Shown here: piece after piece, positions 18,052 through 63,512 of the stretch
How positions within the stretch are numbered: the first letter of the stretch is position 1
How the letters are laid out: every line of letters starts with the position of its first letter
Source: Labrys wisconsinensis
GTDB lineage: Bacteria; Pseudomonadota; Alphaproteobacteria; Rhizobiales; Labraceae
Direction: 5' to 3'
NCBI RefSeq assembly: GCF_030814995.1
Contig: NZ_JAUSVX010000001.1
Coordinates: 310,001-374,000, forward strand
Length of the DNA stretch: 64,000 nt
Notes under the pieces: model-generated
Told to the model about the DNA's origin: nothing
Databases searched by the model: none
The model's input: the letters and a program-made list of their open reading frames with translations, nothing else
Program-made: the position numbers and the translations under genes

Positions 18052-18085
18052 GGCCGGGCCTCCCGGCCGCCCCGACCGCAGATCG

Positions 18086-18119
18086 AACCCGCGCCGCTCG
18101 CCGGCGCGGGTTTTTTGTT
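18086..18119 (+). terminator. Rho-independent terminator of rpsA
   Basis: A perfect 8-bp stem, CCCGCGCC (18088-18095) with GGCGCGGG (18103-18110), is followed directly by TTTTTTGTT. It lies 37 bases after the rpsA stop and just before the convergent exporter gene. Confidence 0.9.
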
Positions 18120-18123
18120 GGGC

Positions 18124-46584: not shown

Positions 46585-47520
46585 TCAGAGCACGGCGAAC
46601 GGCGTCCCGGGCGATCCCGTGGCGCCGACGATCGGCGTCGGCGCGAAGACATAGGCGAAGGTGAAGCGTCGCTTCTCCGCCAGCGGGTCGAGGTTCATGC
46701 CTTCGTGCAGGTGGATCCCGTGCCGCATGATCAGGTGCTGGTGGCAGGGCAGCACCATCTCGGGATCGACGGGCGGCATGACGTCGACGGCGAAATTGTC
46801 CGCCCCGACCACGGAGGGCCGCAGCGCCGACAGGAACTCCGCCGCGGCCAGGCCCAGCCCCGGCGCGCCGTCGTACCAGGTCGCAGCCTCGGCGTGGAAG
46901 CGCGAGCCGTGCCCGGTGCGGATCAGCACGACGTCGCCGGGCTCCAGCCACGCCGCGGGGTCGAGGCCCTCGCGCTCCAGGCAGGCAAGGAGATGGTCCG
47001 GCGTGATCTCGAATCCCGGGTCGAGCGGGGCGCCGAACAGCCCCTGCACGTCGAGCAGCACGCCCCGGGTGAAGAAGATCGGCGCCTGCTCGATGCCGAG
47101 CCGCTTCAGGCCGTAGGGCGTCCAGATGTCGGCGAGGCGGTTGCCGTTGTAGAGCAGCGTCTGGCAATGGCCGCAGCCGCCGAACTGGTGCCCGACATGG
47201 CCGAGCCCGTCCATGTGGGTGCCGATCTGGCCGATCTCGGTGGCGATGAAGTCGTCGTTCCACACCGTCCGGCTGCGGCGCCCCTCGGGGCCGCCCGTCG
47301 GGCCGCCGGGCAGCTTCAGGCCGAAGGTCCGGCCGGGCGACAGCGGCATCGCCGTCGAATAGGGGAAGCCGAGGCTGACGGTCTCGCCGGTGCGGATCAG
47401 CCCGATCGCCGCCTTGACCTTGTCCGGCCCCTGCAGATTGCCGTTGCCGCGCTGGTCGCCGGCCCCCCAGGCCGAGGGAAACCAGGCTTCGCCCAAGGCG
47501 GGATTGGTGTCGTCGGACAT
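46585..47520 (-). CDS. Cyclase family protein (metal-dependent hydrolase)
   Basis: The 311-residue protein belongs to the cyclase/kynurenine formamidase superfamily (PF04199 type), which hydrolyses cyclic or linear amides and related bonds. The metal-binding motif HxGTHxD appears as QIGTHMDGLGHVGHQ, and further metal or proton-relay residues lie in FFTRGVLLDV and EPGDVVLIRTGHG. It starts eight bases after the permease gene and is the last gene of the RbsABC-type importer operon, so its substrate is probably what the transporter brings in. That substrate is unknown. Confidence 0.85.
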   Translation of the reverse strand: MSDDTNPALGEAWFPSAWGAGDQRGNGNLQGPDKVKAAIGLIRTGETVSLGFPYSTAMPLSPGRTFGLKLPGGPTGGPEGRRSRTVWNDDFIATEIGQIGTHMDGLGHVGHQFGGCGHCQTLLYNGNRLADIWTPYGLKRLGIEQAPIFFTRGVLLDVQGLFGAPLDPGFEITPDHLLACLEREGLDPAAWLEPGDVVLIRTGHGSRFHAEAATWYDGAPGLGLAAAEFLSALRPSVVGADNFAVDVMPPVDPEMVLPCHQHLIMRHGIHLHEGMNLDPLAEKRRFTFAYVFAPTPIVGATGSPGTPFAVL

Positions 47521-47528
47521 GGCCGGAC

Positions 47529-48506
47529 TCAGGTGGCGGAGGCGCCGCGGCGCGCCAGCGCCCGCCGGGCGACGATGGCCCGGGACAGGGCCTCGACGAC
47601 GATCACAATGATCAGCAGCGCGCCGGTTGCAAGGCTCTGGGCCCAGAAAGGCGCACCCATGCCGCCGATGCCGCTGATCAGGAAGCGCAGGGCGAACAGC
47701 CCGCACAGGATGCCGGGGATGCTGCCACGCCCGCCCTGCAGGGCGACGCCGCCGATCAGGCAGGCGGCGACGGCCTCCAGCAGCACCGCCTCGAAGCCGA
47801 GCGGGCTGGCGCTGCCGGAGCGCAACGACAGGAGGGCGCCGCCCAGCCCGGCCAGGCCGGCGGACAGGGCGAAGGCGAGCACGATCGGCCGGCGGATCGA
47901 CACGCCGGCGGCGCGCGCCTCGGCCCGCCCGCCGCCGATCGCATAGAGCTCGCGGCCCCACAGCGTCCGGTTGGCGAACAGCCCGACGGCCAGCGCCGCG
48001 GCGAGCAGCGTCAGGCTGAGCGGCGAGAAGACCAGGAAGCGGGCGGCGAAGCCGTCCGTCATCGCCAGCCGGTCGAACGGGATCAGCACGGTCGTCTCGC
48101 CCGAGGCGATCAGGGTGATGCCGCGCAGGCCGATCAGCGTGCCGATGGTGAAGATCATCGAGTTGATGCGCAGCCAGGCGATCGCCAGCCCCTGCAGCGC
48201 GCCGAGGCCGGCGGCGAAGGCGGCCACGGCCAGGATCGCCGGCATCGGGCCGGCCGACGGCGCGAGCTTGACCGCGATGACGCCGCACAGCGCCGCCATC
48301 GAGCCGACCGACAGGTCCATCTCGCCGGCGATCATCGTCAGCCCGACGCCGAGGGCGATCAGCCCGGTGAGCACGGCGCCATCGAGCAGCGCCGCGCCGC
48401 CCTTGAGCGAGGTGTAGGTCGGCAGCATCGCGGCGAAGATCGCGTAGACCGCGACCATCAGCGCGGCGCGGGCCAGGAGGTCGCGGGCCTGGGGCGAGGC
48501 CATCAT
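47529..48506 (-). CDS. ABC sugar transporter permease (RbsC type), second
   Basis: This is a 325-residue inner membrane permease of the branched-chain/ribose class with about ten helices. The signature MIAGEMDLSVGSMAALCGVIA is the RbsC family motif, and GGVALQGGRGSIPGILCGLFAL is the second. Its ATG overlaps the stop of the first permease. Two different permeases in one operon suggest a heterodimeric channel. Confidence 0.92.
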   Translation of the reverse strand: MMASPQARDLLARAALMVAVYAIFAAMLPTYTSLKGGAALLDGAVLTGLIALGVGLTMIAGEMDLSVGSMAALCGVIAVKLAPSAGPMPAILAVAAFAAGLGALQGLAIAWLRINSMIFTIGTLIGLRGITLIASGETTVLIPFDRLAMTDGFAARFLVFSPLSLTLLAAALAVGLFANRTLWGRELYAIGGGRAEARAAGVSIRRPIVLAFALSAGLAGLGGALLSLRSGSASPLGFEAVLLEAVAACLIGGVALQGGRGSIPGILCGLFALRFLISGIGGMGAPFWAQSLATGALLIIVIVVEALSRAIVARRALARRGASAT

Positions 48507-49468
48507 CGCGCCCTCCCCTGCAGGAGATGGAAGGCGCAGGTCGCCACGACGACCAGCCCGCCGACGATCGTCATCCGGACACCGGCGCTGAGGCCGTTGA
48601 GCAGCATGAAGTTCTGCAGGAGCGCGATCAGGACGGCGCCGAAGGCCGCCTGCAGCGGCGAGCCCTGCCCGCCCCGGAGCGCGATGCCGCCGACGAGGAC
48701 GGCGGCGATATAGTCGAAATCGGTGCCGGTGAAGAGATCGGCCTTGGCCTGCGCGAACTGCGCGACGGTGAAGATCGCGACGATGGCGCTCCCGAGGCAG
48801 AGCAGGGTCATGGCCGCGACGGTGGCGGCGCCGACGCTGAGCCCGCTGGCGATCGCCGCCGCCCGGTTGGCGCCGGAGAGCACCAGGAGCCGGCCGATGC
48901 GGGCCCTGCGGATCAGGAACCAGCCGCAGAGCGCGATCGCCGCGAAGGCCCAGCTCTGGGTCGGGATGCCGAGCGGGCGGGCCGTGCCGAACCAGCTCGC
49001 CGCCGCGCTGTCGATCCGCACGATGCCGTTGCCGCTGACCAGCGAGGCGAGGCCGCGGAAGACGGCGCCGAAGGCGAGCGTGGTGACGATCGGGTTGCCG
49101 ATGACGGTGATCGCCAGCCCCTGGGCGATGCCGGCCGCCGCCGCGATGGCCAGGGTCGCGGCCGCGCCGCCGGCAAAGCCCAGCGCCTGCGTCGCCAGGG
49201 CGAAGATCACGGCCAGCAGCGCGGCGAGCTGGCTGGCGGACAGGGCGAACAGGTTGCCGGAGATGGTCACGAAGCTCATGCCGATCGCCACGATGCCGGT
49301 GATGGAAGCGGCGCGGACGATGACGAAGGCATTGTCGACCGTGGCGAAGGCCGGGGTGGTCCAGCGCGCCGCCAGCACCAGCAGGACGATCGCCGCGGCG
49401 ATCAGCGCCAACGGCACGATGCGGGCGGACCGTCCCGGCGGCGATGTCGATTGGGTGAGGGCCAGCAT
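48503..49468 (-). CDS. ABC sugar transporter permease (RbsC type), first
   Basis: The 321-residue permease shows FVTISGNLFALSASQLAALLAV at the place of the usual GGIDLSVG motif, and GGIALRGGQGSPLQAAFGAVLIALLQN near the C-terminus. It follows the ATPase gene after 38 bases and overlaps the second permease by four. The altered central motif, compared with the partner permease, fits subunit specialisation. Confidence 0.9.
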   Translation of the reverse strand: MLALTQSTSPPGRSARIVPLALIAAAIVLLVLAARWTTPAFATVDNAFVIVRAASITGIVAIGMSFVTISGNLFALSASQLAALLAVIFALATQALGFAGGAAATLAIAAAAGIAQGLAITVIGNPIVTTLAFGAVFRGLASLVSGNGIVRIDSAAASWFGTARPLGIPTQSWAFAAIALCGWFLIRRARIGRLLVLSGANRAAAIASGLSVGAATVAAMTLLCLGSAIVAIFTVAQFAQAKADLFTGTDFDYIAAVLVGGIALRGGQGSPLQAAFGAVLIALLQNFMLLNGLSAGVRMTIVGGLVVVATCAFHLLQGRAR

Positions 49469-49506
49469 GGGCTCCGCCTGCGAGCGTTGGGGATGGCGAC
49501 GCCGGG

Positions 49507-50991
49507 TCACGCGGCGAGATCGGGATGGGTGACGTCGCGCGTGATGCTCTCGACCGTGTGCGCCGCGGCCTCGGCCAGACCAACCAGGCGGCCGTGATAG
49601 AAGGTCGCGACCCGGTCGGCGAGGCCGAGCACCTCCTGGGTGTCGGAGGAGGAGAACAGGATGGCGAGGCCGGCCTGCGCCTGGGCCCGCAGGTGCCGGT
49701 AGATCTCGGCCCGCGCCCCGACGTCGACGCCGCGGGTCGGCTCCTCCACCAGGAGCAGGCGCGGCGGCAGGCCGATCCATTTGCCGAGCGCGACCTTCTG
49801 CTGGTTGCCGCCGCTGAGATGGCCTGCAAGCCGGCCGAGGCGGTCGGGATCGAGGCCGAACTGCCCGGCGATCGTCCTGGTATGGGCCCGCTCGGCGCCG
49901 GCATCGATCAGCGCCAGGCGCGTCACCCGGTCGAGCGCCGGGGCCGACAGGTTCTCCACCAGGCTGCGCGCGGCGAAGATGCCGTCGCGCTTGCGGTCGT
50001 CGGAGCAATAGCCGACCCCGGCCGCGATGGCATCGGCGATCGAGCGCGGCGCATAGGGCCGGCCGGCGAGCGTCAGGCGGCCCTGCTGGGCCGGCACCGT
50101 GCCGGCCAGCATGCGCAGCACCGCATTGGCGCCGCTGCCGACCTGCCCGGCCAGCGCCAGGATCTCGCCCTGCCGCAGCCGGAACGACAGCGGCGCCTGC
50201 AGGCCGCGGCACAGCCCCGCCTCCACGGCGAGCAGGGTCTCGCCGAAGGCCTCTGCCCGCGGCGGGAACATCTGGTCGAGCCGTCGCCCGAGCATGCGCT
50301 CGATCAGCCCGTCGACGTCGAGCGAGGCTGTCGCCACCGGCGGGAAACTGCGCCCGTTGCGGATGATGGTGACGCGCCCGGCGAGCTCGAACACCTCGCC
50401 AAGCCGGTGGGTGACGTAGACGATGGCGCAGCCCTCGGCCGACAGGGCGCGCACCGCGGCCTTGACGCGCGCGATCTCGGCGTCGGACAGCGCCGCCGTC
50501 GGCTCGTCGAGGATGGCGATGACCGCCTTGCGCGACAGCAGCCGGGCGATCTCGACGAGCTGGCGCTCCGCCACGGAGATCGAGCCGGCCGCCTGCAGGG
50601 GGTCGACATGGTCGAGCCCGACGCGGGCGAGGAAGGGCCCGGCCAGGCGGGCCAGCCTCGCCGGCGAGCGCCAGACGCCGACGCTCCCGTCGCCGAGGAA
50701 GACGTTCTCGGCCACCGACAGCGTCTCGACGATGCTGAGCTCCTGCGCGACATAGGCGATGCCGGCGGCCTGGGACTGCACGGGCGAGCGGATGGCGCGC
50801 GGCGTTCCCGCGATCTCGATCGTCCCCGCGTCCGGCGTCTCGACCCCGGCGAGGATCTTGACGAGCGTGCTCTTGCCGGCGCCGTTCTCGCCGAGCAGCG
50901 CCATCACCTCGCCGCGCCGCACCTCCAGGTCGACGCTCTCCAGGGCGACGGCCGCGCCGTAGCGCTTGGCGATCTTGGTCATGCGCAGCAT
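49507..50991 (-). CDS. ABC sugar transporter ATP-binding protein (RbsA type)
   Basis: The 494-residue protein has two fused ATPase domains. Domain 1 has Walker A GENGAGKSTLVK, a degenerate signature ISVAERQLVEIAR and Walker B AILDEPTAAL. Domain 2 has the degenerate Walker A GQVGSGANAVLR, the signature LSGGNQQKVALGKW and LLLVEEPTRGVDVGA. This split of one canonical and one degenerate site is usual for RbsA. ATG 50991 with GGGGAGG five bases upstream is preferred over a GTG at 51057 that overlaps the binding-protein gene. Confidence 0.93.
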   Translation of the reverse strand: MLRMTKIAKRYGAAVALESVDLEVRRGEVMALLGENGAGKSTLVKILAGVETPDAGTIEIAGTPRAIRSPVQSQAAGIAYVAQELSIVETLSVAENVFLGDGSVGVWRSPARLARLAGPFLARVGLDHVDPLQAAGSISVAERQLVEIARLLSRKAVIAILDEPTAALSDAEIARVKAAVRALSAEGCAIVYVTHRLGEVFELAGRVTIIRNGRSFPPVATASLDVDGLIERMLGRRLDQMFPPRAEAFGETLLAVEAGLCRGLQAPLSFRLRQGEILALAGQVGSGANAVLRMLAGTVPAQQGRLTLAGRPYAPRSIADAIAAGVGYCSDDRKRDGIFAARSLVENLSAPALDRVTRLALIDAGAERAHTRTIAGQFGLDPDRLGRLAGHLSGGNQQKVALGKWIGLPPRLLLVEEPTRGVDVGARAEIYRHLRAQAQAGLAILFSSSDTQEVLGLADRVATFYHGRLVGLAEAAAHTVESITRDVTHPDLAA

Positions 50992-51044
50992 GGCGGCCTC
51001 CCCGTCGGCGGCCGTGCCGTCCGCTGGCACGGCCGGTCGGTCTT

Positions 51045-52112
51045 TCAGAAGTTGCACAGCTCCTTGGCCGTGCGGCCCCAGAGCTTGGTCTGATCATAGG
51101 CCTGCTGCGAATTGCCGACCGGCGGGTTCGGCAGGAAATTGTACTTGTGCGGCGCGCCCTCGTCCGAGGGCGGCGCGTCCGGGCCGGCCTCGACATAGAC
51201 CTCGCCGTCCTCGACCTTGCCGGTGTTGACGAACTTGGCCAGCGTCTGCACCGCGAGCCAGCCTTCGAAATAGCCGGACTGGATGGCGGTGCCGACCAGC
51301 TCGCCGTTGACGACATGGCTGGAATCGCCGTGGCAGGTGCCGCCGACGATCAGGATATCCTTGCCCGGCGTCAGGCCGTTCTCGCGGGCCGCCTGCGTCG
51401 CCGCGCCGGCGATGGAGTCGTTCTCCGTATAGAGCCAGGTCAGCACGCCCTTGTTGGCCGGGATGATCTGCGCGGCGACCTTGTAGCCCTCGTCCTCGAG
51501 GAAGCCGGCGGTCGGCACCACGGCGATCGTCTCCAGCTTGCCCTTGACCGCATCCTGGAAGCCGGTCACCCGGTCGTCGCCGGCGGAGACACCGGCGGGG
51601 AAGCGGATGATCGCCCCCTTGCCGCACTTGATCGGCGCCTTGGCGCAGGCGTCGAGCAGGAGCTCGGCCGCCGTCTTGCCGCTCAGGAAGTCGTTGGCGC
51701 CGGCATAGGCGGTCCAGTAGGCCTCGGTGCCCTTGATCGGATACTGGTTCGAGACGATCACCGGCGCGCCCGACTGCGACAGGGCGCGGAGCGAGCCCAG
51801 GCCCGCCGCGTTCTCGAACGGCCACCAGACATAGCCCGCCACCGCCTCGCCCGATGCGAGCTGCTGCTGCACCTGGCTGTCCTGCTCGGCCTGGTTGAAG
51901 TTGTTCTCGATGACCTTGATGGTGTAGCCGAGCCCGGCCGCCTTATCCCGGGCGCCCTTCTGGAACTGGCCGATATAGGGGTTGGTGCTCGACGGCACGA
52001 ACACCACGATCGTGCCCTTGTCGGCCGCCGAGGCCGGGGCGAGGCCGGACGTCGCCAGGCCCAGCGCCGCGACCGCGGCCCGAAGTCCCCACCCGAAGCT
52101 TGACGATGCCAT
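51045..52112 (-). CDS. ABC transporter periplasmic sugar-type binding protein
   Basis: The 355-residue protein has a signal peptide (LRAAVAALGLATSGLAPASA, then ADKG) and the two-lobe fold of type I sugar binders (Peripla_BP_4): TIVVFVPSSTNPYIGQF, KVIENNFNQAEQ, GAPVIVSNQYPIKG and WLYTENDSIAGAATQA. GGGAGG precedes the ATG at 52112. It is first in an operon of binding protein, ATPase, two permeases and a cyclase. The ligand is not predictable from sequence; context suggests a compound related to quinate or shikimate. Confidence 0.9.
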   Translation of the reverse strand: MASSSFGWGLRAAVAALGLATSGLAPASAADKGTIVVFVPSSTNPYIGQFQKGARDKAAGLGYTIKVIENNFNQAEQDSQVQQQLASGEAVAGYVWWPFENAAGLGSLRALSQSGAPVIVSNQYPIKGTEAYWTAYAGANDFLSGKTAAELLLDACAKAPIKCGKGAIIRFPAGVSAGDDRVTGFQDAVKGKLETIAVVPTAGFLEDEGYKVAAQIIPANKGVLTWLYTENDSIAGAATQAARENGLTPGKDILIVGGTCHGDSSHVVNGELVGTAIQSGYFEGWLAVQTLAKFVNTGKVEDGEVYVEAGPDAPPSDEGAPHKYNFLPNPPVGNSQQAYDQTKLWGRTAKELCNF

Positions 52113-52285
52113 TGCCGTCCTCCCTTGGCCGCCATTCGCGGGCGTGCCGTTTTGCTCGATCCCCGTCCCGGCGGACGTCGGACTTCCAACGCCGGCAGGG
52201 AGGGCGGCGCGATCGACCGGGCCTCGTCGCCCGGCCCACCGTCGGCGAGGACGGCGGCGCCGGCATCCTCCCGGACCGGCTGGCG

Positions 52286-52316
52286 ATATAAACACTATCT
52301 AGTTAGTACACGTCAA
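52286..52316 (-). promoter_or_regulatory. Importer-operon promoter with embedded TetR operator
   Basis: On the minus strand, TTGACG (52311-52316) and TTATAT (52286-52291) are separated by 19 bases. The spacer contains TACTAACTAGATAGTG (52293-52308 on the complement), matching 11 of 16 positions of the perfect palindrome upstream of the dehydrogenase gene. Binding there would block the promoter of the transporter operon. Confidence 0.55.
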
Positions 52317-52353
52317 CGCCGTTTCAGCGACGCCGTCATCCGCGCTCGCCCCG

Positions 52354-53040
52354 TCAGCCGTGCTTGAGATAGGCGACGACGGCATCCTGGATCATCTGCC
52401 GGTGCCGCGCCCTGGTGCCGTGCTCGCCGAGGTCGCGGGCGAAGATCGTGCCGAACGTGTGCCGGTTCGAGACGCGGAAGAAGCAGAAGGCGCTGATCAT
52501 CATGTGCAGGTCGACCGCGCTGATCGCCGCCCGGAACGTCCCCTCCTTGCGCCCACGCTCCAGGATCGCGGTGAGCGCGTCGATGACCGAGACGTTCAAT
52601 CTCGCGATCGTCTCCGACCGCGCCATGTGCTCGGCCCGGTGGATGTTCTCGATCGCCACCAGGCGGACGAATTCCGGATGGGCCTCGTCATAGTCGAAGG
52701 TCGAGCCGATCAGCACCCGGATGGCGGTCTCCGGGTCGAGATTGGCCAGGTTGAGCGCGTCCTCGACGTCGCGGATGGCCTGATAGGCCTTCTCGAGCAC
52801 GGCGAGGTAGAGCCCCTCCTTGCTGCCGAAATGATAGTAGATCATGCGCTTGGAGGTGCGCGTCCGCTCGGCGATGGCATCGACCCGCGCGCCGGACAGG
52901 CCATGCGCCGCGAATTCCTGCGTCGCCACGTCGAGGATGTCGCTGCGGGAGAGATCGGCGTCGCCACGGCGCGAAGCCGGCCTTTCTGCCGCGGCCTTGC
53001 CCGCCTCCGGCGCTCCTGCCGCCTCGTTCCGCCTCGCCAT
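52354..53040 (-). CDS. TetR/AcrR family transcriptional regulator
   Basis: The 228-residue protein has an N-terminal helix-turn-helix (SRSDILDVATQEFAAHGLSGARVDAIAERTRTSKRMIYYHFGSK, quoted here only to locate residues 27-70 by its first and last segments SRSDILDVATQEF and RMIYYHFGSK). The C-terminal ligand domain includes FVRLVAIENIHRAEHMARS and DLHMMISAFCFFRVSN. It sits between the importer operon and the divergent dehydrogenase gene, whose promoters carry related palindromes. It probably represses both and responds to a pathway compound. Confidence 0.92.
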   Translation of the reverse strand: MARRNEAAGAPEAGKAAAERPASRRGDADLSRSDILDVATQEFAAHGLSGARVDAIAERTRTSKRMIYYHFGSKEGLYLAVLEKAYQAIRDVEDALNLANLDPETAIRVLIGSTFDYDEAHPEFVRLVAIENIHRAEHMARSETIARLNVSVIDALTAILERGRKEGTFRAAISAVDLHMMISAFCFFRVSNRHTFGTIFARDLGEHGTRARHRQMIQDAVVAYLKHG

Positions 53041-53397
53041 CGCCGGTTCTTCCCGCCGCCTCATCCGCATGACCTCGGCTTCGAACGTCGCGATCCGCGG
53101 CCGCGACCGGCAGCAGGCCGCCGCGATCGGGAGACTCCCGCCGCGGGCGGCAAGCCGGCCCGCGAACGTCCAAGTTCGTCCCCTAAGCAGTTTCCGCGGC
53201 TTTCGCCATGATTGATTTGGCATGTCCCATGCAAAATCAAGGCTGCCCGAATGCGTGGGCCCGGACGGATTCCGGAGAGCCTGCCCGGAGGCGGCCTTCG
53301 CCACCCTCTCTGCGGCGAACCGTGGGGCGGGAGCTCTGGACAAATGTACGAACCAGTTCGTATATGAGCCGGGACGCGCAGGCTCGGGAGAAGACGT
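53041..53397. promoter_or_regulatory. Divergent control region between tetR and the dehydrogenase gene
   Basis: No gene is seen in these 357 bases. TTGATTTGGCATG (53212-53224) and CATGCAAAATCAA (53228-53240) form a 13-bp inverted repeat with one mismatch and a three-base centre. Nearer the dehydrogenase gene lie TGGACA (53337-53342) and TATATG (53361-53366), 18 bases apart, with the palindrome TACGAACCAGTTCGTA (53347-53362) between them. The second site is a strong TetR operator candidate; the first differs in sequence and may serve another regulator. Confidence 0.6.
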
Positions 53398-54288
53398 GTG
53401 TCGGCAGAAGGGTCAACCGGAACCCCCGTTCGGGCAGCGCTGATCGGCGCCGGCATCCAGGCTTCGCTGACGCCGGCCCTGCACATGGCCGAGGGCTCGG
53501 CCAACGGCCTCGCCTATGACTATGAGCTGATCGACCTGGAGCGGCTGCATCTCGATGCCTCCGCGCTGCCGCAGATCCTCCAGGCGGCCGAGCGGCGCGG
53601 CCTCGTCGGCCTCAACGTCACCCATCCCTGCAAGCAGGCGGTCCTCGCCGAGCTCGATGCGCTCTCCGACGACGCCGCCGCGTTGCGCGCGGTCAACACC
53701 GTCGTGCTGCGCGGGGGCCGGCGCGTCGGCCACAACACCGACTGGTCGGGCTTTCGGGAGGGCTTCAGGCGAGCCCTGCCGGACGCCGACCTCCGCGCCG
53801 TCGTCCAGCTCGGGGCCGGGGGTGCCGGCGCCGCCGTCGCCCATGCCGCGCTCGTCATGGGGTCGGCGGCGCTCACCCTGTTCGACCGCGAGGCGGACCG
53901 GGCCGAGCGGCTGGCGGCCGACCTTGCCGGGCGCTTCCCCGACCGCCGCATCCGCGCCGGCGGGGACCTCGACGCGGTAATGGCGACGGCCACCGGCCTG
54001 ATCCATGCGACGCCGACCGGCATGCGCGGCCATCCCGGCATGCCGCTGCCCGCGCACCTCCTCGACGGCCGGCCCTGGGTGGCGGAGATCGTCTACTTCC
54101 CGCTCGAGACCGAGCTCCTGCGCGCCGCCCGTGCCAGGGGCTGCCGCACCGTCGACGGCGGCGGCATGGCCGTGTTCCAGGCGGTCGGCGCCTTCCGCCT
54201 CTTCACCGGCCTGGAGCCCGATGCCGGCCGGATGCTGCGCCACTTCGAGAGCCTGGTGCGCGGCGAGCCCGCCGGCCGGAGCGGATGA
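53398..54288 (+). CDS. aroE: Quinate/shikimate dehydrogenase (QsuD-like AroE family)
   Basis: The 296-residue Rossmann-fold enzyme resembles Corynebacterium QsuD, which oxidises quinate and shikimate with NAD+, more than biosynthetic AroE. The substrate loop reads SLTP (Ser23, Thr25) where biosynthetic enzymes have Ser-x-Ser. Lys79 (NVTHPCKQAVL) and Asp115 (GHNTDWSGF) are the catalytic pair, and the nucleotide loop is GAGGAGAAV. The C-terminal VDGGGMAVFQAVGAFRLFTG matches the catabolic group. GTG start with GGGAGAAG upstream. Context (TetR site, 3-dehydroshikimate dehydratase nearby) supports catabolism. Confidence 0.82.
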   Translation: MSAEGSTGTPVRAALIGAGIQASLTPALHMAEGSANGLAYDYELIDLERLHLDASALPQILQAAERRGLVGLNVTHPCKQAVLAELDALSDDAAALRAVNTVVLRGGRRVGHNTDWSGFREGFRRALPDADLRAVVQLGAGGAGAAVAHAALVMGSAALTLFDREADRAERLAADLAGRFPDRRIRAGGDLDAVMATATGLIHATPTGMRGHPGMPLPAHLLDGRPWVAEIVYFPLETELLRAARARGCRTVDGGGMAVFQAVGAFRLFTGLEPDAGRMLRHFESLVRGEPAGRSG

Positions 54289-54331: not shown

Positions 54332-55177
54332 TCACCCCTTCACCGCGCCGGCCGAGAGGCTCTCGACCAGGAAGCGCTGGAGATAGACGAAGCCGAGGGC
54401 GACCGGCACCACTGCCAGCACCGAGGCGGCCATCAGCAGGCCCCAGTCGGTCTGGTGCGAGCCCTTGAAGATCATGATCCCGGGGGTGAGCGTGCGCCGC
54501 GCGTCGTCGTTGATCAGGACGTAGCCGAACATGAACTCGTTCCAGGCGGCGACGAAGGCGAAGACGCCGGTCGCCAGGATCCCCGGCGCCGAGAGCGGCA
54601 GCAGGATGCGGCGGATGAAGCCGAGGCGCGAGCAGCCGTCGATCTCGGCGGCCTCCTCCAGCTCGATCGGGATCCCGTCGAAGAAGCCCTTCAGCATGAA
54701 GGTCACCAGCGGGATCATGAAGGTGCAGTAGACGATGATCAGCGCCCAATAGGTGCTGAGCAGGCCGAGATGCCGCATCAGCACGTAGAGCGGCACGAGC
54801 AGCAGCACGCCCGGGATCATCTGCGACACCACCATGGCCCCGCCGACCAGCCGGCTCACGGTCTGGTATCCCCAGCGGCTGAGGGCGTAGCTGGCGAACA
54901 CCGACACCACCAGCGTGAACAGGGTCGAGGCGCCGGCGACGATCAGGCTGTTGCGGAAATAGACGAGGAAATCGCTGTCGAGCAGCACGGCGGCGAAATT
55001 CTTCAGCGTCGGCGCCGCGATCAGGAAGGTCGGCCGGCTGCTCATCACCTCGGCCGGCGGCTTCAGCGCGGTGTCGAGCATCCACAGGAAGGGAAAGAGG
55101 CACAGCACGCAGAAGACGGCGAGCGTCGCATAGGTCGCCACGCCGGCGATCAGGCGCTGGCTGCGGTTCACCACCAT
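54332..55177 (-). CDS. Carbohydrate ABC transporter permease (MalG type)
   Basis: The 281-residue, six-helix permease has the EAA motif EEAAEIDGCSRLGFIRRILL, which contacts an ATPase. It also shows the MalG-like FCVLCLFPFLWMLDTALKP at the N-terminus. Its ATG shares one base with the stop of the partner permease. It is the last gene of the GH4 operon; no ATPase gene follows. Confidence 0.92.
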   Translation of the reverse strand: MVVNRSQRLIAGVATYATLAVFCVLCLFPFLWMLDTALKPPAEVMSSRPTFLIAAPTLKNFAAVLLDSDFLVYFRNSLIVAGASTLFTLVVSVFASYALSRWGYQTVSRLVGGAMVVSQMIPGVLLLVPLYVLMRHLGLLSTYWALIIVYCTFMIPLVTFMLKGFFDGIPIELEEAAEIDGCSRLGFIRRILLPLSAPGILATGVFAFVAAWNEFMFGYVLINDDARRTLTPGIMIFKGSHQTDWGLLMAASVLAVVPVALGFVYLQRFLVESLSAGAVKG

Positions 55178-56118
55178 CAGCGCCCGCCCCGGCGGCGCAC
55201 GCCGTAGAAATAGACGAAGAACATGGCGGCCATGAAGCCCATCGACATCGAGGCCAGGGCGCAGGCGGCGCCGACGTCGAAGTCCTGCATGGCATAGCGG
55301 TAGATCATCACGGGCAGGGTCTGCGAGGCGTTGAGTGGGCCGCCCTGGGTCATCACCCAGATGAAGTCGAAATTGATGGCGGTCCAGACGATGTGCATGA
55401 ACACCAGCGTCAGCGACACCGCCTTGAGGTGCGGCAGGGTGATGACGAGGAAGCGCCGGAGCGTCCCGGCCCCGTCGATCGCCGCCGCCTCGTGCAGCTC
55501 GCGCGGCACCGCCTGCAGCGCCGCCAGGAGGCTGATGGTGTAGAAGGGAAAGCTGCGCCAGATATTGACCAGGGTGACCGTGAGCAGCGCCGTGTCCACC
55601 TGTCCCAGCCAGTCGCGCGGGTGATCGATGAGGCCGAGATCGACCAGCCAGGCGTTGAGCACGCCGTAATCAGGGTTGAGCAGCCACATCCAGTTGAGGC
55701 CGGCGATGGCGATCGGGATCACCCAGGGCACCACCACGATGCCGCGGAACACGGCGCGGGCCCGGATCGGCTGCGCCAGCGCCAGGGCGGCGGCGAGCCC
55801 GAGGGCATATTCGCCGGCGACGGAGAGGCCCGTCCAGGTCAGCGTGTTCCACAGGGCGGGGAGGAAGTCCTCGTCCTCCAGGACGGTGCGGTAATTGTCC
55901 GCCCCGGCGAAGCCCGACGTCGCGGGGTCGACCAGGTTGGCATAGTGCAGGCTCTGCCAGAGCACGTCGGCCAGGGGAAAGGCGACCAGCACCAGCATCA
56001 GCGCCGCCGCCGGCGCCAGGAACAGGGCGGCGGCGCGCCGCAGCCGGGCCTGGCGGCCGGCCGCCGGGCGGGCGACCGCCGCCGCCCCGTCCGATGCCGC
56101 GAAGTCCAAGGCCGCCAT
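55177..56118 (-). CDS. Carbohydrate ABC transporter permease (MalF type)
   Basis: The 313-residue permease has the EAA motif HEAAAIDGAGTLRRFLVITL and helices such as ALFLAPAAALMLVLVAFPLAD. WVIPIAIAGLNWMWLLNPDYG is typical of the UgpA/MalF group. ATG 56118 was chosen; a GTG at 56145 overlapping the binding-protein stop is an alternative. It pairs with the MalG-type permease downstream. Confidence 0.92.
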   Translation of the reverse strand: MAALDFAASDGAAAVARPAAGRQARLRRAAALFLAPAAALMLVLVAFPLADVLWQSLHYANLVDPATSGFAGADNYRTVLEDEDFLPALWNTLTWTGLSVAGEYALGLAAALALAQPIRARAVFRGIVVVPWVIPIAIAGLNWMWLLNPDYGVLNAWLVDLGLIDHPRDWLGQVDTALLTVTLVNIWRSFPFYTISLLAALQAVPRELHEAAAIDGAGTLRRFLVITLPHLKAVSLTLVFMHIVWTAINFDFIWVMTQGGPLNASQTLPVMIYRYAMQDFDVGAACALASMSMGFMAAMFFVYFYGVRRRGGR

Positions 56119-56141
56119 GGCTCCCCCGCCCTCCCGCGGCG

Positions 56142-57398
56142 TCACTGGGTGGAGATTTCACCCGACTGGCGCAGGCTCTTGTTGATCGCCTTGCCGAGCC
56201 AGGCCGCCACCGAAGCCGGATCTTCGTTCTTCAGGAGCACGCGGCCGATCGAATCCGCCATGTCGCGGGTGATCGAGCCGAGCGCCACCGGTGGGAAGGA
56301 CACGCCGATCGGCGTCAGCGAGGTGAAGGGCTGGCCCCAGACCGCGTCGCCCTCGATGTCGCTCCGCGGCGAGCGGTCGGGGTAGACGGCCGACTGGAAG
56401 TCGTGGCCGAGCATGAAGGCGGCGAAGGTCCAGGTCTCCTTCGGGTGCTTGCTCCTGAAGATGTAGAAGGGCGCGATCTCGAAGAAGGTGGCGGCCTTCT
56501 GCCCGGCCGGCGGCGGGGCGACGCGCACGTCCTTCATCGTCTCGGCGTTCTGGTCGATGCGGCTGCGCATCCAGGAGCCGTCGACGACCATGGCATATTG
56601 ACCGAGGGCGAAGTTGGTGTCCTCCTCCTCCCAGCCCCAGCCGGCCGCCTGCTTGGGGATCACGTCCTTGTCCAGCATCTGCCGGTAGAGCGCGAACACC
56701 TCGGTGGCGCGCTTCATCTCGTCGGGATTGTCGGCCCAGTCGTTGCGATACTTGCCGTCCGGCATGCGCCGGGCCAGCGACACGCCGTTCTGGGCGAGAT
56801 ACATGATCAGCTCCTGCGGCGAGCGCACGCCCTTGCCGGCGATGCCAAAGCCGTTCTTGCCCGTCGCCTGCTTGATCTTGCCGGCGGCCTCGACCAGCTC
56901 GGTCCAGGTCTTGGGCGGCTCGGCGATGCCGGCCGCCTTGAGCATGTCGGCATGGTAGAGCAGGCCGCGCAAGCCGAGATAGTTCGGCAGCGCCAGGAGC
57001 TTGCCGTCGACGGTGAGCGCGGCGAGGGCGTTGGGATAGATCTTGTCGCGGTCCGGCCAGGCCGCCGCGTCGGCGGTGAGGTCGGCCAGCGCGCCCATGC
57101 GGTTGAACTCGCCGAGCCATTCGATCAGGCCCCAGCTGAGGTCCGGCGCGTCGCCGCCGGCGATGGCGGTGACCAGCTTGTCGTGCAGGGCGTCGTAGGC
57201 GATGGTCTGGGTCTTGATCCTGATATCGGGGTGGGCGGCCTCGAAGGCGGCGATCTCTGCCTGCGCCGCCCTGGTCTCGGCCTGCACCGGATCCCAGGCG
57301 ACCCAGAAGTTCAGCGTCACCGGCTCGGCCGCGGCACCGCGGGGCAGCAAGGGCGTCGCCAGCGCGGCCAGCAGCAGTCCGATCTTCAGCATCCTCAT
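56142..57398 (-). CDS. Carbohydrate ABC transporter substrate-binding protein
   Basis: The 418-residue protein has a signal peptide (MLKIGLLLAALATPLLPRGAAA) and the solute-binding family 1 fold: TLNFWVAWDP, FEAAHPDIRIKTQT, LVTAIAGGDAPDLSW and LLALPNYLGLRGLLYH. GGGGAGAA lies before the ATG. It follows the GH4 gene and precedes two permease genes. The ligand is probably an oligosaccharide or glycoside cleaved by the GH4 enzyme. Confidence 0.92.
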   Translation of the reverse strand: MRMLKIGLLLAALATPLLPRGAAAEPVTLNFWVAWDPVQAETRAAQAEIAAFEAAHPDIRIKTQTIAYDALHDKLVTAIAGGDAPDLSWGLIEWLGEFNRMGALADLTADAAAWPDRDKIYPNALAALTVDGKLLALPNYLGLRGLLYHADMLKAAGIAEPPKTWTELVEAAGKIKQATGKNGFGIAGKGVRSPQELIMYLAQNGVSLARRMPDGKYRNDWADNPDEMKRATEVFALYRQMLDKDVIPKQAAGWGWEEEDTNFALGQYAMVVDGSWMRSRIDQNAETMKDVRVAPPPAGQKAATFFEIAPFYIFRSKHPKETWTFAAFMLGHDFQSAVYPDRSPRSDIEGDAVWGQPFTSLTPIGVSFPPVALGSITRDMADSIGRVLLKNEDPASVAAWLGKAINKSLRQSGEISTQ

Positions 57399-57459
57399 CG
57401 TCGTTCTCCCCTGATTGGCCTTGTTGGTCTTGTGGCGGCCGCGTGCGGATGGCGAAGGG

Positions 57460-58953
57460 TCAGGCCACCACCTGCTGGTCCGGCGACACGCCGCCCTCCC
57501 TGCGCGCGCGCTCGCGGCGCAGCTCCTCGATCGAGCGCACCGGCAGGCGCGCGGCGCCCTGCCAGTCGCGCTTCGGCACCTTGCTCCCGGCCAGCCGCGC
57601 TTCGGCGCCGGCGACGGCGTGGGCGTATTGCGGCAGCCAGCGCGCCTGCGCCACCAGCAGCTCGTCGACCATCTGCCAGACCTCGTCCGGCGTGCAGACG
57701 GCGCCGACCAGCGGGTCGTTCAGCACGGCGAGCTTGAGCAGGTCGACGTCGCCGGTCACCGCCGCCTTCACCGCCATGCGCTGCACGTTGATCGAGGCGA
57801 TGCAGGGCGCGGCGCAGGCCTCCGGCAGGGTGAGGCCGGCGACCATGTTGAGGCCGAAGCGGTCGACGAAGCCGGTCGATTCGACGATCGCGTCTGCCGG
57901 CAGGTTGGTGATCAGGCCGCGATTCCTGACATTGAAATGGCCGCGATAGACCCGGCCCGTCTCCAGCGCCTCGATGATGTAGCTGGCATGCTCGGTGGTG
58001 CGGCGGCCCGGATCGATCGCCTTGTCCGCATCGGCGAGGAAGCGCGGGAATTCCTCCTCGAACCAGTTGCGCCCCTCGGTGCAGACCCTGAGATAGCCGC
58101 CGGTCTCGCCGTGGATCCATTCGGACATGTCGATCCAGCGGCCGATCTCCTCCGGGCGCTTGCGGTACCAGGGCAGGTATTCGGACAGGTGCCCGTTGCT
58201 CTCGGTGGAATAGACGCCGAAGCGCTTGAGCACGTCGATGCGCACCTTCTCCTGGCGCGAGAGCACGGGATGGCGCTCATAGGCGGCGACGAGCTCGTCG
58301 CGGCCGACGCGCCGGCCGTTGTGGCGCACGTCGATATACCAGGTCTGGTGGTTGATGCCGGCGCAGATGTACTCGACCTCGCTGGGGTGGGCGGCGCCGA
58401 GCGCCTCGGCGATCTGGCGCCAGCCGTGCTGCACGCCGTGGCAGAGGCCGATCGTGTCGACCCCGCCGTGCTCGAGCGCGGCCCAGGTGTTCATCGCCAT
58501 CGGGTTGGCATAGTTGAGCAGGCGCGCGCCCGGCTCGGCCACGGCGCGGATGTCGCGGCAGAACTCGAGGATAGCCGGGATCGAGCGCTGGCCGTAGAGG
58601 ATGCCGCCGGCGCAGATCGTGTCGCCGACGCATTGGTCGACGCCATATTGCAGGGGGATGCGGATGTCGTCGGCGAAGGCTTCCAGGCCGCCGACGCGCA
58701 CGCAGTTGATGATGTAGCGCGCCCCCTCCAGCGCCGCCCGCCGCTGCGTGGTGGCGCTGATGCGCGCCGGCAGCCGGTTGACCGCGACCACGCGCTCCAG
58801 GATCTGCCGGATCATGCCGAGATTGTGCTCGTTGATGTCGGTCAGGGCGAACTCGGCTTCCTGCAGCTCCGGCACGCACAGGATGTCGCGCACCAGGGTG
58901 CGGGTGAAGCCGACGCTGCCGGCGCCGATGATCGCGATCTTCAGGGGAGCCAT
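57460..58953 (-). CDS. Family 4 glycoside hydrolase (alpha-galactosidase/alpha-glucosidase type)
   Basis: GH4 enzymes cleave glycosides by an NAD+- and Mn2+-dependent redox mechanism in the cytoplasm. The 497-residue protein has the Rossmann start KIAIIGAGSVGFTRTLVRD, NYANPMAMNTWAAL, the metal-ligand cysteine and histidine in LCHGVQHGW and ICAGINHQTWYIDV, and AIVESTGFVDRFG. ATG 58953 has GGAGACGG upstream. It is first in an operon with a sugar importer and divergent from an AraC gene. Exact sugar preference within GH4 (galactoside, glucoside or glucuronide) is not settled by reading. Confidence 0.9.
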   Translation of the reverse strand: MAPLKIAIIGAGSVGFTRTLVRDILCVPELQEAEFALTDINEHNLGMIRQILERVVAVNRLPARISATTQRRAALEGARYIINCVRVGGLEAFADDIRIPLQYGVDQCVGDTICAGGILYGQRSIPAILEFCRDIRAVAEPGARLLNYANPMAMNTWAALEHGGVDTIGLCHGVQHGWRQIAEALGAAHPSEVEYICAGINHQTWYIDVRHNGRRVGRDELVAAYERHPVLSRQEKVRIDVLKRFGVYSTESNGHLSEYLPWYRKRPEEIGRWIDMSEWIHGETGGYLRVCTEGRNWFEEEFPRFLADADKAIDPGRRTTEHASYIIEALETGRVYRGHFNVRNRGLITNLPADAIVESTGFVDRFGLNMVAGLTLPEACAAPCIASINVQRMAVKAAVTGDVDLLKLAVLNDPLVGAVCTPDEVWQMVDELLVAQARWLPQYAHAVAGAEARLAGSKVPKRDWQGAARLPVRSIEELRRERARREGGVSPDQQVVA

Positions 58954-59108
58954 CTCGTTCCGTCTCCAGCACAGGAACACCCGCCGGGCGCCGTTCGCGC
59001 CAAGGGACCGTTCCGCCCGCCCCGTCCGGGCCGAGCCGCCGCGCAATGTCCAGCCGTCTCATCTATGCTCGGGGGCCGATCGGCTGAACAGAGGATGCCG
59101 GTGCTCTC

Positions 59109-60002
59109 ATGGGTAATTCTGTGCTCGACCATCTGGTCGACCGCGGCCCGGTCCGCCGGGTGATCTCGCTGCCGCGCCGGCGCGCTCCGCTGCACATCAT
59201 GCCGACCAGCGCCGGCTACGAGATCGCCGAGGGGCCGGCCTATGACTGGGACGGGCGCAAGCGCGGCAACACCCCCTTCTCGGTGCTGCAGCACACCGTC
59301 GCCGGCGCCGGCCGGCTGCACTACGAGCGCCGGGAGCACCGGCTGCGGCCGGGCGACACGATGCTGGTGACCATTCCCCATCCCCACCGCTACTGGCTGG
59401 AGGGCGGGGAGACCTGGTCGTTCTTCTGGATCGCGATGAGCGGCCAGGAGGCGCTGCGGCTGCACCGGGCCATCCTGGCCGCGGCCGGTCCGGTGTTCCG
59501 CCTCCGGACGGAGACGGTCGACGAGCTCGCCCGGGCCTGCCTGGCGCTCGCCGACGAACCGCTGGAGGCCGGCCGCGCCTCCGGCATCGCCTACACCGCC
59601 ACCATGGCGCTGCACGACGACCTCCTGGCCCGCCAGGAGGCCGGCGCGGGCGAAGCCCGCCACGCCGCCATCGCCCGCGTCACCGCCCATGTCCGCCAGC
59701 ACCTCGACGAGCCCCTGGAGGTGCAGGCGCTTGCCGACGTCGCCGGCATGAGCCGCGCCCATTTCAGCCGCCTGTTCGCCCGGGTCGAGGGCCTGCCGCC
59801 TTCCGAATTCGTGCTGCGCGAGCGCATGCAGCGGGCGGCGCGCCTGCTGGTCAACGGCCAGCTCAGCGTCAAGGCCATCGCCAGCGCCTGCGGCTTCGCC
59901 GACCCCAACTATTTCGCCAAGGCCTTCCGCCGCAGCTTCGCCATCAGCCCGTCCGCCTTCCGCACGACTGGCATGTATGGGGGGCCGCGGTCGGAACGGT
60001 GA
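59109..60002 (+). CDS. AraC family transcriptional regulator
   Basis: The 297-residue protein has an N-terminal cupin sugar-sensing domain (RLHYERREHRLRPGDTMLVTI with HPHRYW) and two C-terminal helix-turn-helix motifs (LEVQALADVAGMSRAHFSRL and VKAIASACGFADPNYFAKAF). It is divergent from the GH4 operon across a 155-base gap that contains the palindrome GCCGATCGGC (59075-59084). It is very likely the activator of that operon. Confidence 0.92.
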   Translation: MGNSVLDHLVDRGPVRRVISLPRRRAPLHIMPTSAGYEIAEGPAYDWDGRKRGNTPFSVLQHTVAGAGRLHYERREHRLRPGDTMLVTIPHPHRYWLEGGETWSFFWIAMSGQEALRLHRAILAAAGPVFRLRTETVDELARACLALADEPLEAGRASGIAYTATMALHDDLLARQEAGAGEARHAAIARVTAHVRQHLDEPLEVQALADVAGMSRAHFSRLFARVEGLPPSEFVLRERMQRAARLLVNGQLSVKAIASACGFADPNYFAKAFRRSFAISPSAFRTTGMYGGPRSER

Positions 60003-60023: not shown

Positions 60024-61889
60024 TCAGGCCGCGCGCGGCTCCTTCGACAGCCGGGTCTGGGCGGCGAGGCGGATCGGGGCGTTGGCGGCGCCGAAGCCGC
60101 GATAGGAGCGCCGCTCGACGATCTCGAAGAAGAACCGGTCGGCGAAGGCCCTCGTGTAGATCTGGAGATATTCGCCGTCGGCGTCGCGGTCGTAGAGGAT
60201 GCCGTGCCGCGCGAAGGTCGCGAGCCGGTCCTCCGGCAGGTCGAAGCGCGCCGCCAGGTCGTCGTAGTAGTTGGCCGGGATGGCGAGCATCGCCACGCCG
60301 CAGGCCTCCAGCCGTTCGGCGGCCGCCACGATGTCGCCGGTCGAGAAGGCGACGTGCTGCACGCCCGACCCCACGAACTCGTCGAGGAACCGGGAGGAGA
60401 GCGTACGCTGGCCCTGGGAGCCGTTCAGGATCAGGCGGAGGCTCGACTGCGGGTTCTGCAAGGCCTGGCTGCGGACCAGGCCGGCGGGGTCGGCGACATC
60501 CACCGCCGGCAGCTTCGAGAGATCGAAGAGCGCGGTGTAGAACAGGAGCCACGACAGCATCTCGTCATAGTGCATGGACTGCGAGATGTGGTCGACGGCA
60601 TCGAGCGGGCCGGCCGCTCCGGTTTCGGCCTCCACCTCGAAATCGGCGCTCCAGAGCGCGCCGGCCGGTCCCTGGCCGTCGACGAAGCGGATCAGGCTGC
60701 CGCCGACGCCGGCTATGGCCGGGATCGCCGGCTCGCCCGGCCATGCGGCCTGGTGAGGCGGGGCCGCGAACAGGCCGCGGGCGCGGCGCATGGCCGCCTC
60801 GGCATCGTCGACGGCGAGGCCGAGCGAAGAGATCGACGGCCCGTGCAGGGTGGAGAAGGCCCGGGCGAAGCCGTCGGGATCCTTGTTGATCACGAGGTTG
60901 ATGGCATTCTGCGTCCACACGCTCACGTCCCGGGAGCGATGGCGCCATCGCCTGGAGAAGCCGAGGCCCGCCAGCATCTGTTCCAGCTTCTCGGCCTGCG
61001 CCTCGTCGACGGCGAATTCGAGAAAGGCCACGCCGCGGCAGGCCACGCGCCCGGGCAGGCCGGCCGCCGGCACTTCGGCGGGCGCGGTCTGGTCGAGCAG
61101 CCAGGCGATCGAGCGGCGGCCGTCAAGCGCCACCATTCGGGCCGAGCCGGCCCGGAACTGGTCGTTGAAGATCTCCAGCGACAGCACGCCGTCGTACCCC
61201 GTCGCCTGCACCGCGCGCACGAACTCGGCCACCGGCAGGTCGCCCTGGCCCGGCATGGTGCGGAAATGCCGGCTCCAGGACAGGAGGTCGAGCTGGAGCC
61301 GGGGGGCATCGGCGAGCTGCACCAGGAACAGCTTCTCCTTCGGGATCGAGCTGATGCTGGTCACCTCGATGCCGCGCGACAGCGTGTGGAAGCTGTCGAG
61401 GATGAGGCCGAGCGCGGGATGGTCGGCCCGGCGCACGATCTCCCAGGCATCGCGGTGATCGCTGACGAAGCGGCCCCAGGCCAGGGCCTCGTAGCCGATC
61501 CTCAGGCCGCGCCGGGCGGCGCGCCCGGCCAGTTCCCGGAGGTCGGCGGCGGCCCGGTCGATGCCGCCGAGCGCCTGGGGCGAGACGCTGGAGCAGATCA
61601 GCACGAGATCCGTGCCGAGCTCCTCCATCAGATCGAACTTGCGCTCGGCGCGGTCGAACGCCTTGCGGCGCGCGGGCTCGGGCAGGCCCTCGAAGTCGCG
61701 GAACGGCTGGAAGAGTGTGACCTCGAGCCCCTGGTCGCGCACCATCCGGCCGACCTCGCGCGGCGAATGGTCGAAGGACAGCACGTCCGCCTCGAAGATC
61801 TCGACCCCGTCGAAGCCCGCCCGGGCGATGGCGGTGAGCTTTTCCGAAAGGTCGCCGCTCAGCGACACGGTGGCGATCGAGGTCTTCAT
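60024..61889 (-). CDS. Two-domain 3-dehydroshikimate dehydratase (QuiC/QsuB-like)
   Basis: The 621-residue protein joins an N-terminal AP-endonuclease-2-type TIM barrel (about 1-270) to a C-terminal 4-hydroxyphenylpyruvate-dioxygenase-like VOC domain (about 290-600). Barrel metal ligands appear in RIGYEALAWG, LILDSFHTLS and GVLSLEIFND. The VOC half keeps metal-site residues in DHISQSMHYDEML, GVQHVAFSTGD and DGEYLQIYT. Pseudomonas QuiC1 has this fusion and converts 3-dehydroshikimate to protocatechuate. AGGAG lies eight bases before ATG 61889. It is divergent from a LysR gene. Confidence 0.85.
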   Translation of the reverse strand: MKTSIATVSLSGDLSEKLTAIARAGFDGVEIFEADVLSFDHSPREVGRMVRDQGLEVTLFQPFRDFEGLPEPARRKAFDRAERKFDLMEELGTDLVLICSSVSPQALGGIDRAAADLRELAGRAARRGLRIGYEALAWGRFVSDHRDAWEIVRRADHPALGLILDSFHTLSRGIEVTSISSIPKEKLFLVQLADAPRLQLDLLSWSRHFRTMPGQGDLPVAEFVRAVQATGYDGVLSLEIFNDQFRAGSARMVALDGRRSIAWLLDQTAPAEVPAAGLPGRVACRGVAFLEFAVDEAQAEKLEQMLAGLGFSRRWRHRSRDVSVWTQNAINLVINKDPDGFARAFSTLHGPSISSLGLAVDDAEAAMRRARGLFAAPPHQAAWPGEPAIPAIAGVGGSLIRFVDGQGPAGALWSADFEVEAETGAAGPLDAVDHISQSMHYDEMLSWLLFYTALFDLSKLPAVDVADPAGLVRSQALQNPQSSLRLILNGSQGQRTLSSRFLDEFVGSGVQHVAFSTGDIVAAAERLEACGVAMLAIPANYYDDLAARFDLPEDRLATFARHGILYDRDADGEYLQIYTRAFADRFFFEIVERRSYRGFGAANAPIRLAAQTRLSKEPRAA

Positions 61890-62939: not shown

Positions 62940-63512
62940 GGAGGCCGGCGACCGGGCCAGGGCGGCGGATGACGCACCTCGCAGCGGCCTTGGCGCACCC
63001 TTATGGCCGGGCTCGCCCCAACCATCTACGCCCACCCGGACTTTTGGCCGGGAGAGGGCGAGCGTGGCAGGTGACTTTCCTGCACCGGTCCTGTTCCGCG
63101 TGGATGGGCGGATCAGGTCCGCCCATGACGTCGAGGTTCTCGTGCAAGGGCGGCCGCCCCACCCGCCGCCGTCATGGACGGGCTCGTCCCGTCCATCCAC
63201 GCGAACTCGGGACGTGCCGCAAAGAGCGTCGGGCCGGCGACGCCCAACATGGTCTTCGTCGCGTGCGCGTGAATGGACCGATCAAGTCGGTCCATGACGT
63301 TGAGGTTCTCGTGCAAAGGCGGCCGCCCCAACCGCCGCCGTCATGGACGGGCTCGTCCCGTCCATCCACGCGAACTCGGGACGTGCCGCAAAGAGCGCCG
63401 GGCCGGCGACGCCCAACATGGTCTTCGTCACGGACGCACTGGATAGGCGGATCAAGTCCGCCCTGGCGGTCGGGGACGGCGCGGCCATCGCGATCTTCGG
63501 CTCCAGCCTCCC
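62940..63512. repeat. 169-bp tandem repeat with conserved hairpins
   Basis: This 573-base gap has no gene. A unit of 169 bases is present at about 63105-63273 and 63274-63442, and the first 25 bases or so of a third follow. Each unit starts with a perfect hairpin (TGGGCGGA/TCCGCCCA, TGGACCGA/TCGGTCCA, GGCGGA/TCCGCC). Each full unit also holds ATGGACGGG-CTCGT-CCCGTCCAT (63174-63196 and 63343-63365). A degraded copy of that palindrome lies at 63003-63023. Confidence 0.85.

Follow-up and report, generated by a model that had tools for sequence, protein, structure and literature searches.

A sugar-type ABC importer and a cyclase-like hydrolase in a probable quinate/shikimate regulon of Labrys wisconsinensis

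What does a sugar-type importer bring into the cell when its genes end in a hydrolase and lie beside a quinate/shikimate dehydrogenase, and what is the hydrolase for? The question is raised by a 64,000-nt stretch of Labrys wisconsinensis DNA (contig NZ_JAUSVX010000001.1, positions 310,001 to 374,000; the window), which carries genes for an RbsABC-type (CUT2-like) ATP-binding cassette (ABC) importer, a PF04199 cyclase-like hydrolase (the cyclase), a TetR-family regulator and a QsuD-like quinate/shikimate dehydrogenase (SDH). The reading favoured here, with moderate confidence, is a TetR-linked regulon for quinate/shikimate-class compounds with this importer and with the cyclase as an unmasking hydrolase, by which a plant acid or one of its derivatives would be taken up in an uncommon way; that the substrate class is of the quinate/shikimate type is, on sequence grounds, likely. 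The features concerned are:

46585..47520, minus strand: PF04199 cyclase-like metal hydrolase (311 aa; Pfam E 7e-19)
47529..48506, minus strand: ABC permease 2 (BPD_transp_2, PF02653)
48503..49468, minus strand: ABC permease 1 (BPD_transp_2, PF02653)
49507..51057, minus strand: double-domain ABC ATPase, RbsA/AraG-like (ABC_tran, two matched stretches; alternative start at 51030 possible)
51045..52112, minus strand: RbsB-fold periplasmic substrate-binding protein (SBP) (Peripla_BP_4, PF13407)
52292..52309: operator-like palindrome ACACTATCTAGTTAGTAC, upstream of the SBP gene, 3 mismatches to the pattern GTACKAACNNGTTMGTAC
52354..53040, minus strand: TetR-family regulator (TetR_C_29; PF17938, PF00440), between the SBP and SDH genes
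53346..53363: operator-like palindrome GTACGAACCAGTTCGTAT, between tetR and sdh, just before the SDH start, 1 mismatch to GTACKAACNNGTTMGTAC
53398..54288, plus strand: SDH, QsuD-like (PF08501, PF18317, NF009201)
60024..61889, minus strand: two-domain QuiC1-type 3-dehydroshikimate dehydratase (5HMQ match, active-site residues)

The arrangement of importer, cyclase and QsuD-like dehydrogenase given in a preliminary description of this DNA was confirmed by Pfam, NCBIfam and solved-structure matches and by gene spacing. The importer and cyclase genes follow one another on the minus strand as SBP, ATPase, permease 1, permease 2 and cyclase, and because these genes overlap or are separated by gaps of ~40 bp or less, they very likely form one transcript. 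The two permeases are as unlike as had been stated (29.8% identity over 235 columns). SDH scored 444.7 bits against the NF009201 subfamily (cut-off 235), and its best solved relatives are structures of C. glutamicum QsuD (2NLO, E 3e-68; 3JYO, E 8e-68); against the C. glutamicum QsuD equivalog, NF010631, it scored 247.2 bits, below the cut-off of 515. SDH and QsuD have in common the stretches S-x-T, THP-x-KQ and HNTD, and in both the second strand of the cofactor domain is followed by an Asp that we take to indicate a preference for NAD.

For shikimate, SDH and QuiC suffice to give protocatechuate; quinate additionally needs a dehydroquinase. The QuiC-type dehydratase at 60024-61889 is the strongest support for the observation; both it and the TetR gene lay outside the text of the preliminary description. 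The protein was matched to PDB 5HMQ, P. putida QuiC1, at E 4e-180 across residues 1-613, covering both domains, and all 10 active-site residues published for QuiC1 (PMC7442255) were found in the window protein and in each of 5 others aligned. The stretch 54332-60002 between sdh and quiC encodes a sugar ABC transporter and an AraC-type regulator, both named by reading the sequences, together with a GH4 alpha-galactosidase-type enzyme that scored above the cut-off of NF011657. In several relatives the two genes that this sugar cassette splits are neighbours. One AroQ is encoded ~5 kb beyond the window, a search of the same genome found no AroD, and PcaH scored above cut-off elsewhere in it. No AroQ relative was found in the cluster loci at E <= 1e-12 (tblastn; AroD was not searched in those loci).

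Relatives of the cluster were collected by two routes. Of the 10 loci that a scan with the cyclase returned, 7 have the cyclase and sdh together with a complete importer (Rhizobium sp. G21, two Shinella, Metarhizobium album, R. tropici, Kaistia soli and Acidisoma cellulosilyticum); in the other 3 the ABC importer is more distant, and neither sdh nor quiC was matched. An order-wide SBP search added one further cluster (L031) and recovered Kaistia again, for a total of 8 other genomes; L014 and L032 both stem from one genome, that of Kaistia soli, which was counted once, and L020 and L021 repeat L031 and L032. Where few or no genes were called (L009, L013, L015, L018, L034, L035), content was taken from tblastn with the window proteins. 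One draft genome (L009) has apparent frameshifts that break up each of quiC, sbp and perm1.

A tetR gene was present in 7 of the 8 relative loci (the R. tropici contig ends just upstream of sdh), and quiC stands directly beside tetR or sdh in 5 (L009, L012, L014, L015, L031). All 8 cluster genomes carry quiC, against 49/199 sampled genomes of the order (own genome included); the cluster genomes are related to one another, and no probability is attached to this comparison. In Metarhizobium (L012) the cyclase is followed by a LysR-type gene and then pcaD, pcaC, pcaH and pcaG, all four pca genes over their cut-offs. The same locus has, some 5 kb beyond the cyclase (16364-18387), a tryptophan 2,3-dioxygenase gene and a kynureninase-like gene identified by eye. 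In Shinella (L093, L094) quiC has a different location, with a TetR gene of its own, pca-like genes and a branched-chain-type ABC importer as neighbours, the names other than quiC and TetR being read from sequence starts.

The R. tropici genome has, in addition to its ABC-cyclase unit, a quiC gene on the contig that holds the importer, ~370-380 kb away from it and within a major facilitator superfamily (MFS)-quiC-tetR-sdh unit that carries two palindromes (L095 7064-12312, G781). Its MFS protein scored 308.2 bits against the ShiA equivalog NF007414 (cut-off 538) and 385 bits against a general metabolite/H+ symporter model (cut-off 443), and is by these scores ShiA-like, no formal ShiA member. 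One regulon in this genome has two SDH copies and two ways of import.

Putative operators before both the SBP and SDH genes had also been proposed. The pattern GTACKAACNNGTTMGTAC was drawn up after inspecting the two window sites; at <= 3 mismatches it matched the window twice, with 0.03 matches expected and 0/100 shuffles containing two, so the shared sites stand as being beyond chance. Since the pattern was built from those sites, position in the relatives is the independent test. A tighter pattern allowing <= 2 mismatches fell at 11 places in the 8 relative genomes, and coordinate mapping put 11/11 of them inside either the cluster or the quiC unit of R. tropici. At <= 3 mismatches the pattern occurred at 7 places in the Labrys genome, the best being the one-mismatch site and 5 lying outside the cluster. 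We infer that TetR is the protein that binds the palindromes. Alike three-mismatch palindromes were also seen at L034 10666 and L035 8456; in each case a related importer has its paralogous SBP gene (34% identity) ~1.1 kb downstream of the site.

The link of quiC to the cluster by synteny and co-occurrence, and the restriction of the palindromes at <= 2 mismatches in the relatives to this regulon, including the quiC unit of R. tropici, make it very probable that the importer works in quinate/shikimate-class catabolism. The preliminary interpretation of the locus is supported in part: its tie to this catabolism is well backed, by the quiC synteny, the palindrome at the distant R. tropici quiC unit and the pca genes in Metarhizobium.

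The importer itself was compared with RbsABC and CUT2 sugar importers, which take up sugars and cyclitols. It shares with them a PF13407 SBP with the RbsB fold (predicted model, mean pLDDT 87.3), PF02653 permeases and a double-domain ATPase, and thus falls within a broadly defined CUT2-like class. It differs in its two unlike permeases, in the replacement of two pocket Asp residues of RbsB, and in its scores, which stay under the cut-offs of all sugar-specific NCBIfam models listed (best 406.3 of 689 bits for the ATPase, 114.7 of 363 and 95.7 of 398 for the permeases, 61.5 of 337 for the SBP). The positions of D89, R90 and D215, which we take to be ligand-pocket residues of RbsB, hold N, Q and T in all 8 cluster SBPs examined (L009 was omitted from this alignment because of its frameshifts), with N13, R141, F164, N190 and Q235 retained and F15, F16 and F214 replaced by Y, I and G; in the window SBP, N122 and T259 occupy the two Asp positions and R181 is retained. 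Since two acidic groups are lost and one Arg is kept, an acid or neutral derivative would suit the pocket better than a pentose. Reading the ligand from the nearest solved structures was tried and given up, as the 50 matches listed were sugar-type binding proteins at 13-25% identity and uninformative. At E <= 1e-60 a relative of the SBP was found in 1/398 genomes of the phylum, the genome's own, and at E <= 1e-40 in 6/397 genomes of the order, namely its own, two at 79-81% and three at 37-39% identity. The 19 kb surrounding these last three gave no cyclase, SDH or quiC match by tblastn.

The cyclase scored 68.8 bits against PF04199 (gathering score 23.1), and no signal peptide was seen by eye. 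Its residues include Q98-x3-H102-x-D104-x3-H108, R64, H260, E273 and a CGHC stretch. The nearest solved relative by both sequence and fold is 5IBZ, which is MGS0169, a Mn-stimulated metal-dependent carboxylesterase with weak isatin activity, whose motif Q-x3-Q-x-D-x3-H is common to trans-dienelactone hydrolase and which is impaired by alanine at Q127, Q131, D133, R87, H286 or E299 (PMC5341072). By alignment, the window cyclase keeps the matching R64, Q98, D104, H108, H260 and E273, and so shares with MGS0169 and trans-dienelactone hydrolase the PF04199 family and the R, Q, D, H, H and E residues, and with 5IBZ also the fold. It differs from MGS0169 in having His (H102) for the second Gln, Ser at the Phe84 position, and CGHC. 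In a comparison of 40 cyclases (9 from clusters and 31 others; the partial L062 was left out), all 9 cluster enzymes had these three features, whereas among the others the second motif position was Gln in 31/31, the Phe84 position was F in 27, A in 3 and M in 1, and CGHC occurred in 0/31. Because this His/Ser/CGHC signature was found in 9/9 against 0/31, the cluster cyclases are, by comparison of their sequences, a specialised group with a private signature.

Enzymes of the PF04199 family cleave amides, esters and lactones, and for this reason a small quinate/shikimate lactone or ester would be the simplest reading of the cyclase substrate. The earlier proposal, opening of a lactone, ester or amide, is in keeping with the biochemistry described for the enzyme's nearest solved relative and with its co-occurrence with the ABC importer; the more definite claim, hydrolysis of a small lactone or ester derived from the imported acid, is held with slightly less than even confidence. 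The cyclase was present in all 9 ABC-type clusters (partly by selection, as 7 relatives were found through it), gave no tblastn match in the fetched R. tropici MFS-quiC-tetR-sdh stretch, and has relatives at ~62% (L016, L017, L018) that follow a different RbsABC-type importer, with a LacI-like gene nearby in L017; this distribution suggests that it acts on what the pump imports. Cyclase relatives at E <= 1e-40 were found in 37/385 genomes of the class, and near 29 other cyclase-family loci no SDH or quiC was found by tblastn at E <= 1e-12 (~1.5 kb on each side, less at contig ends). A plasmid collection contained 12 records with a cyclase match, 5 from Shinella at 74% and 7 below 60%; annotation was read for 2 of the 12. 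The Labrys genome has eight PF04199 matches above cut-off, the window cyclase included. Two other roles were considered and set aside. A substitute dehydroquinase, an idea prompted by the missing AroQ relative in the cluster loci, is at odds with a fold and motif that belong to an ester/amide hydrolase family, and AroQ is encoded in the genome; an enol-lactone hydrolase is unlikely where PcaD is encoded beside the cluster (L012).

In the proposed mechanism, the SBP would capture a small carboxylate of the cyclohexane or cyclohexene type, or a neutral and likewise small derivative of such an acid (a lactone or methyl-type ester), and the ABC pump would carry it into the cell, where the cyclase, as a cytoplasmic metal-dependent ester/lactone hydrolase, would release the carboxylate. 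SDH would then oxidise shikimate to 3-dehydroshikimate, or quinate to 3-dehydroquinate for conversion by the genome's AroQ, and QuiC would convert 3-dehydroshikimate to protocatechuate, which would enter the beta-ketoadipate pathway. TetR would sit on the palindromes before the SBP and SDH genes (and before quiC in relatives) and be released by a pathway compound. A narrower version, put forward tentatively, is a parallel entry in which the ABC importer carries a neutral masked form (lactone or methyl-type ester) not carried by anion symporters, the cyclase is a dedicated quinate/shikimate lactonase/esterase, and both are under one TetR.

Three other explanations were weighed. The ABC pump could be a high-affinity importer of free shikimate or quinate, with the cyclase as a repair or side enzyme (for example, for spontaneous quinate lactone) or a downstream-lactone enzyme. 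SDH and QuiC alone complete the path from shikimate to protocatechuate, and N and T in place of two pocket Asp with the Arg retained would suit an anion, if the RbsB pocket roles are as we presume; however, the cyclase had no match in the fetched R. tropici MFS-type stretch, and its downstream use is less likely where PcaD adjoins the cluster, which is one locus only (L012), so that this explanation appears unlikely without being far-fetched. It is improbable that the importer serves an unrelated sugar or cyclitol that a drifted SDH has come to oxidise, with the quiC neighbourhood incidental: RbsABC-type transporters are known for such cargo, the SBP fold matches listed were sugar-binding proteins, and sdh and quiC are separated in the window by a sugar-utilisation cassette, but quiC, sdh and the importer have common synteny and palindromes in several genomes, including the R. 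tropici unit ~370-380 kb away. A kynurenine formamidase or isatin hydrolase sitting at the operon end by chance is very improbable, for although KynB and isatin hydrolase structures were weaker fold matches, L012 has its tryptophan 2,3-dioxygenase gene and a kynurenine GO term occurs in the Shinella annotation, the cyclase had no NCBIfam match at E <= 0.001, no tryptophan-pathway gene is named in the annotation of two Shinella regions (no such search was made at the other loci), and all 9 cluster cyclases have Gln and His at the first two positions of the classical H-x3-H-x-D-x3-H motif, in contrast to KynB, with zinc ligands His50, His54, Asp56, His161 and Glu173 (PMC4243253).

Several results weigh against the favoured regulon of importer, unmasking hydrolase and TetR. 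The solved relatives listed for the SBP model are only 13-25% identical, so the ligand cannot be read from them. The 62% cyclase relative goes with another ABC importer, at loci where neither sdh nor quiC was matched (L016-L018). As 7 of the 8 relatives were found through the cyclase, its presence in them is by selection, L031 and Kaistia, from the SBP search, being exempt. The window quiC has no palindrome at <= 4 mismatches and adjoins a LysR gene. A reversed control of the pattern gave 29 places in the Labrys genome against 7 (<= 3 mismatches), and in the 8 relative genomes 7 forward and 3 reverse places against 11 for the palindrome; because such controls give comparable or higher counts, the palindrome argument rests on position and not on number. 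Finally, another ABC route, perhaps a third way of import, may exist, given the branched-chain-type ABC importer beside the Shinella quiC.

Elsewhere in the window, several near copies of a short stretch lie between two LysR-type genes (62980-63550; repeated phrases in the translations).

If the favoured regulon is real, it would provide a binding-protein-dependent, sugar-type uptake route for quinate/shikimate breakdown, a concrete natural substrate class for a specialised PF04199 branch, and a TetR and operator usable as a sensor for quinate/shikimate-class compounds; the system is small and testable through one binding protein and one enzyme. We are not aware of an earlier example of binding-protein-dependent, sugar-type import tied to quinate/shikimate breakdown. 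Among the titles listed in the literature searched none describes this cluster, which is weak evidence of absence as most subscription papers were outside its coverage. The carriers named for quinate/shikimate in the available part of one source are QsuA and ShiA (PMC11258901).

Among known systems, the R. tropici ShiA-like MFS unit (L095) has the palindrome, quiC, tetR and sdh in common with the window cluster and an MFS carrier where the latter has the ABC importer and cyclase. The cluster shares with C. glutamicum qsuABCD a QsuD-like dehydrogenase and a two-domain QuiC1/QsuB-type dehydroshikimate dehydratase leading to protocatechuate. It differs from qsuABCD in having a cyclase-like hydrolase, an RbsABC-type importer where that system has QsuA, a TetR regulator where it has the LysR-type QsuR, and, where it has the dehydroquinase QsuC, cluster loci without an AroQ relative (AroD was not searched there). 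The downstream enzymes are thus of known kinds, and what is new is their combination with the ABC importer, the cyclase, TetR and the palindrome.

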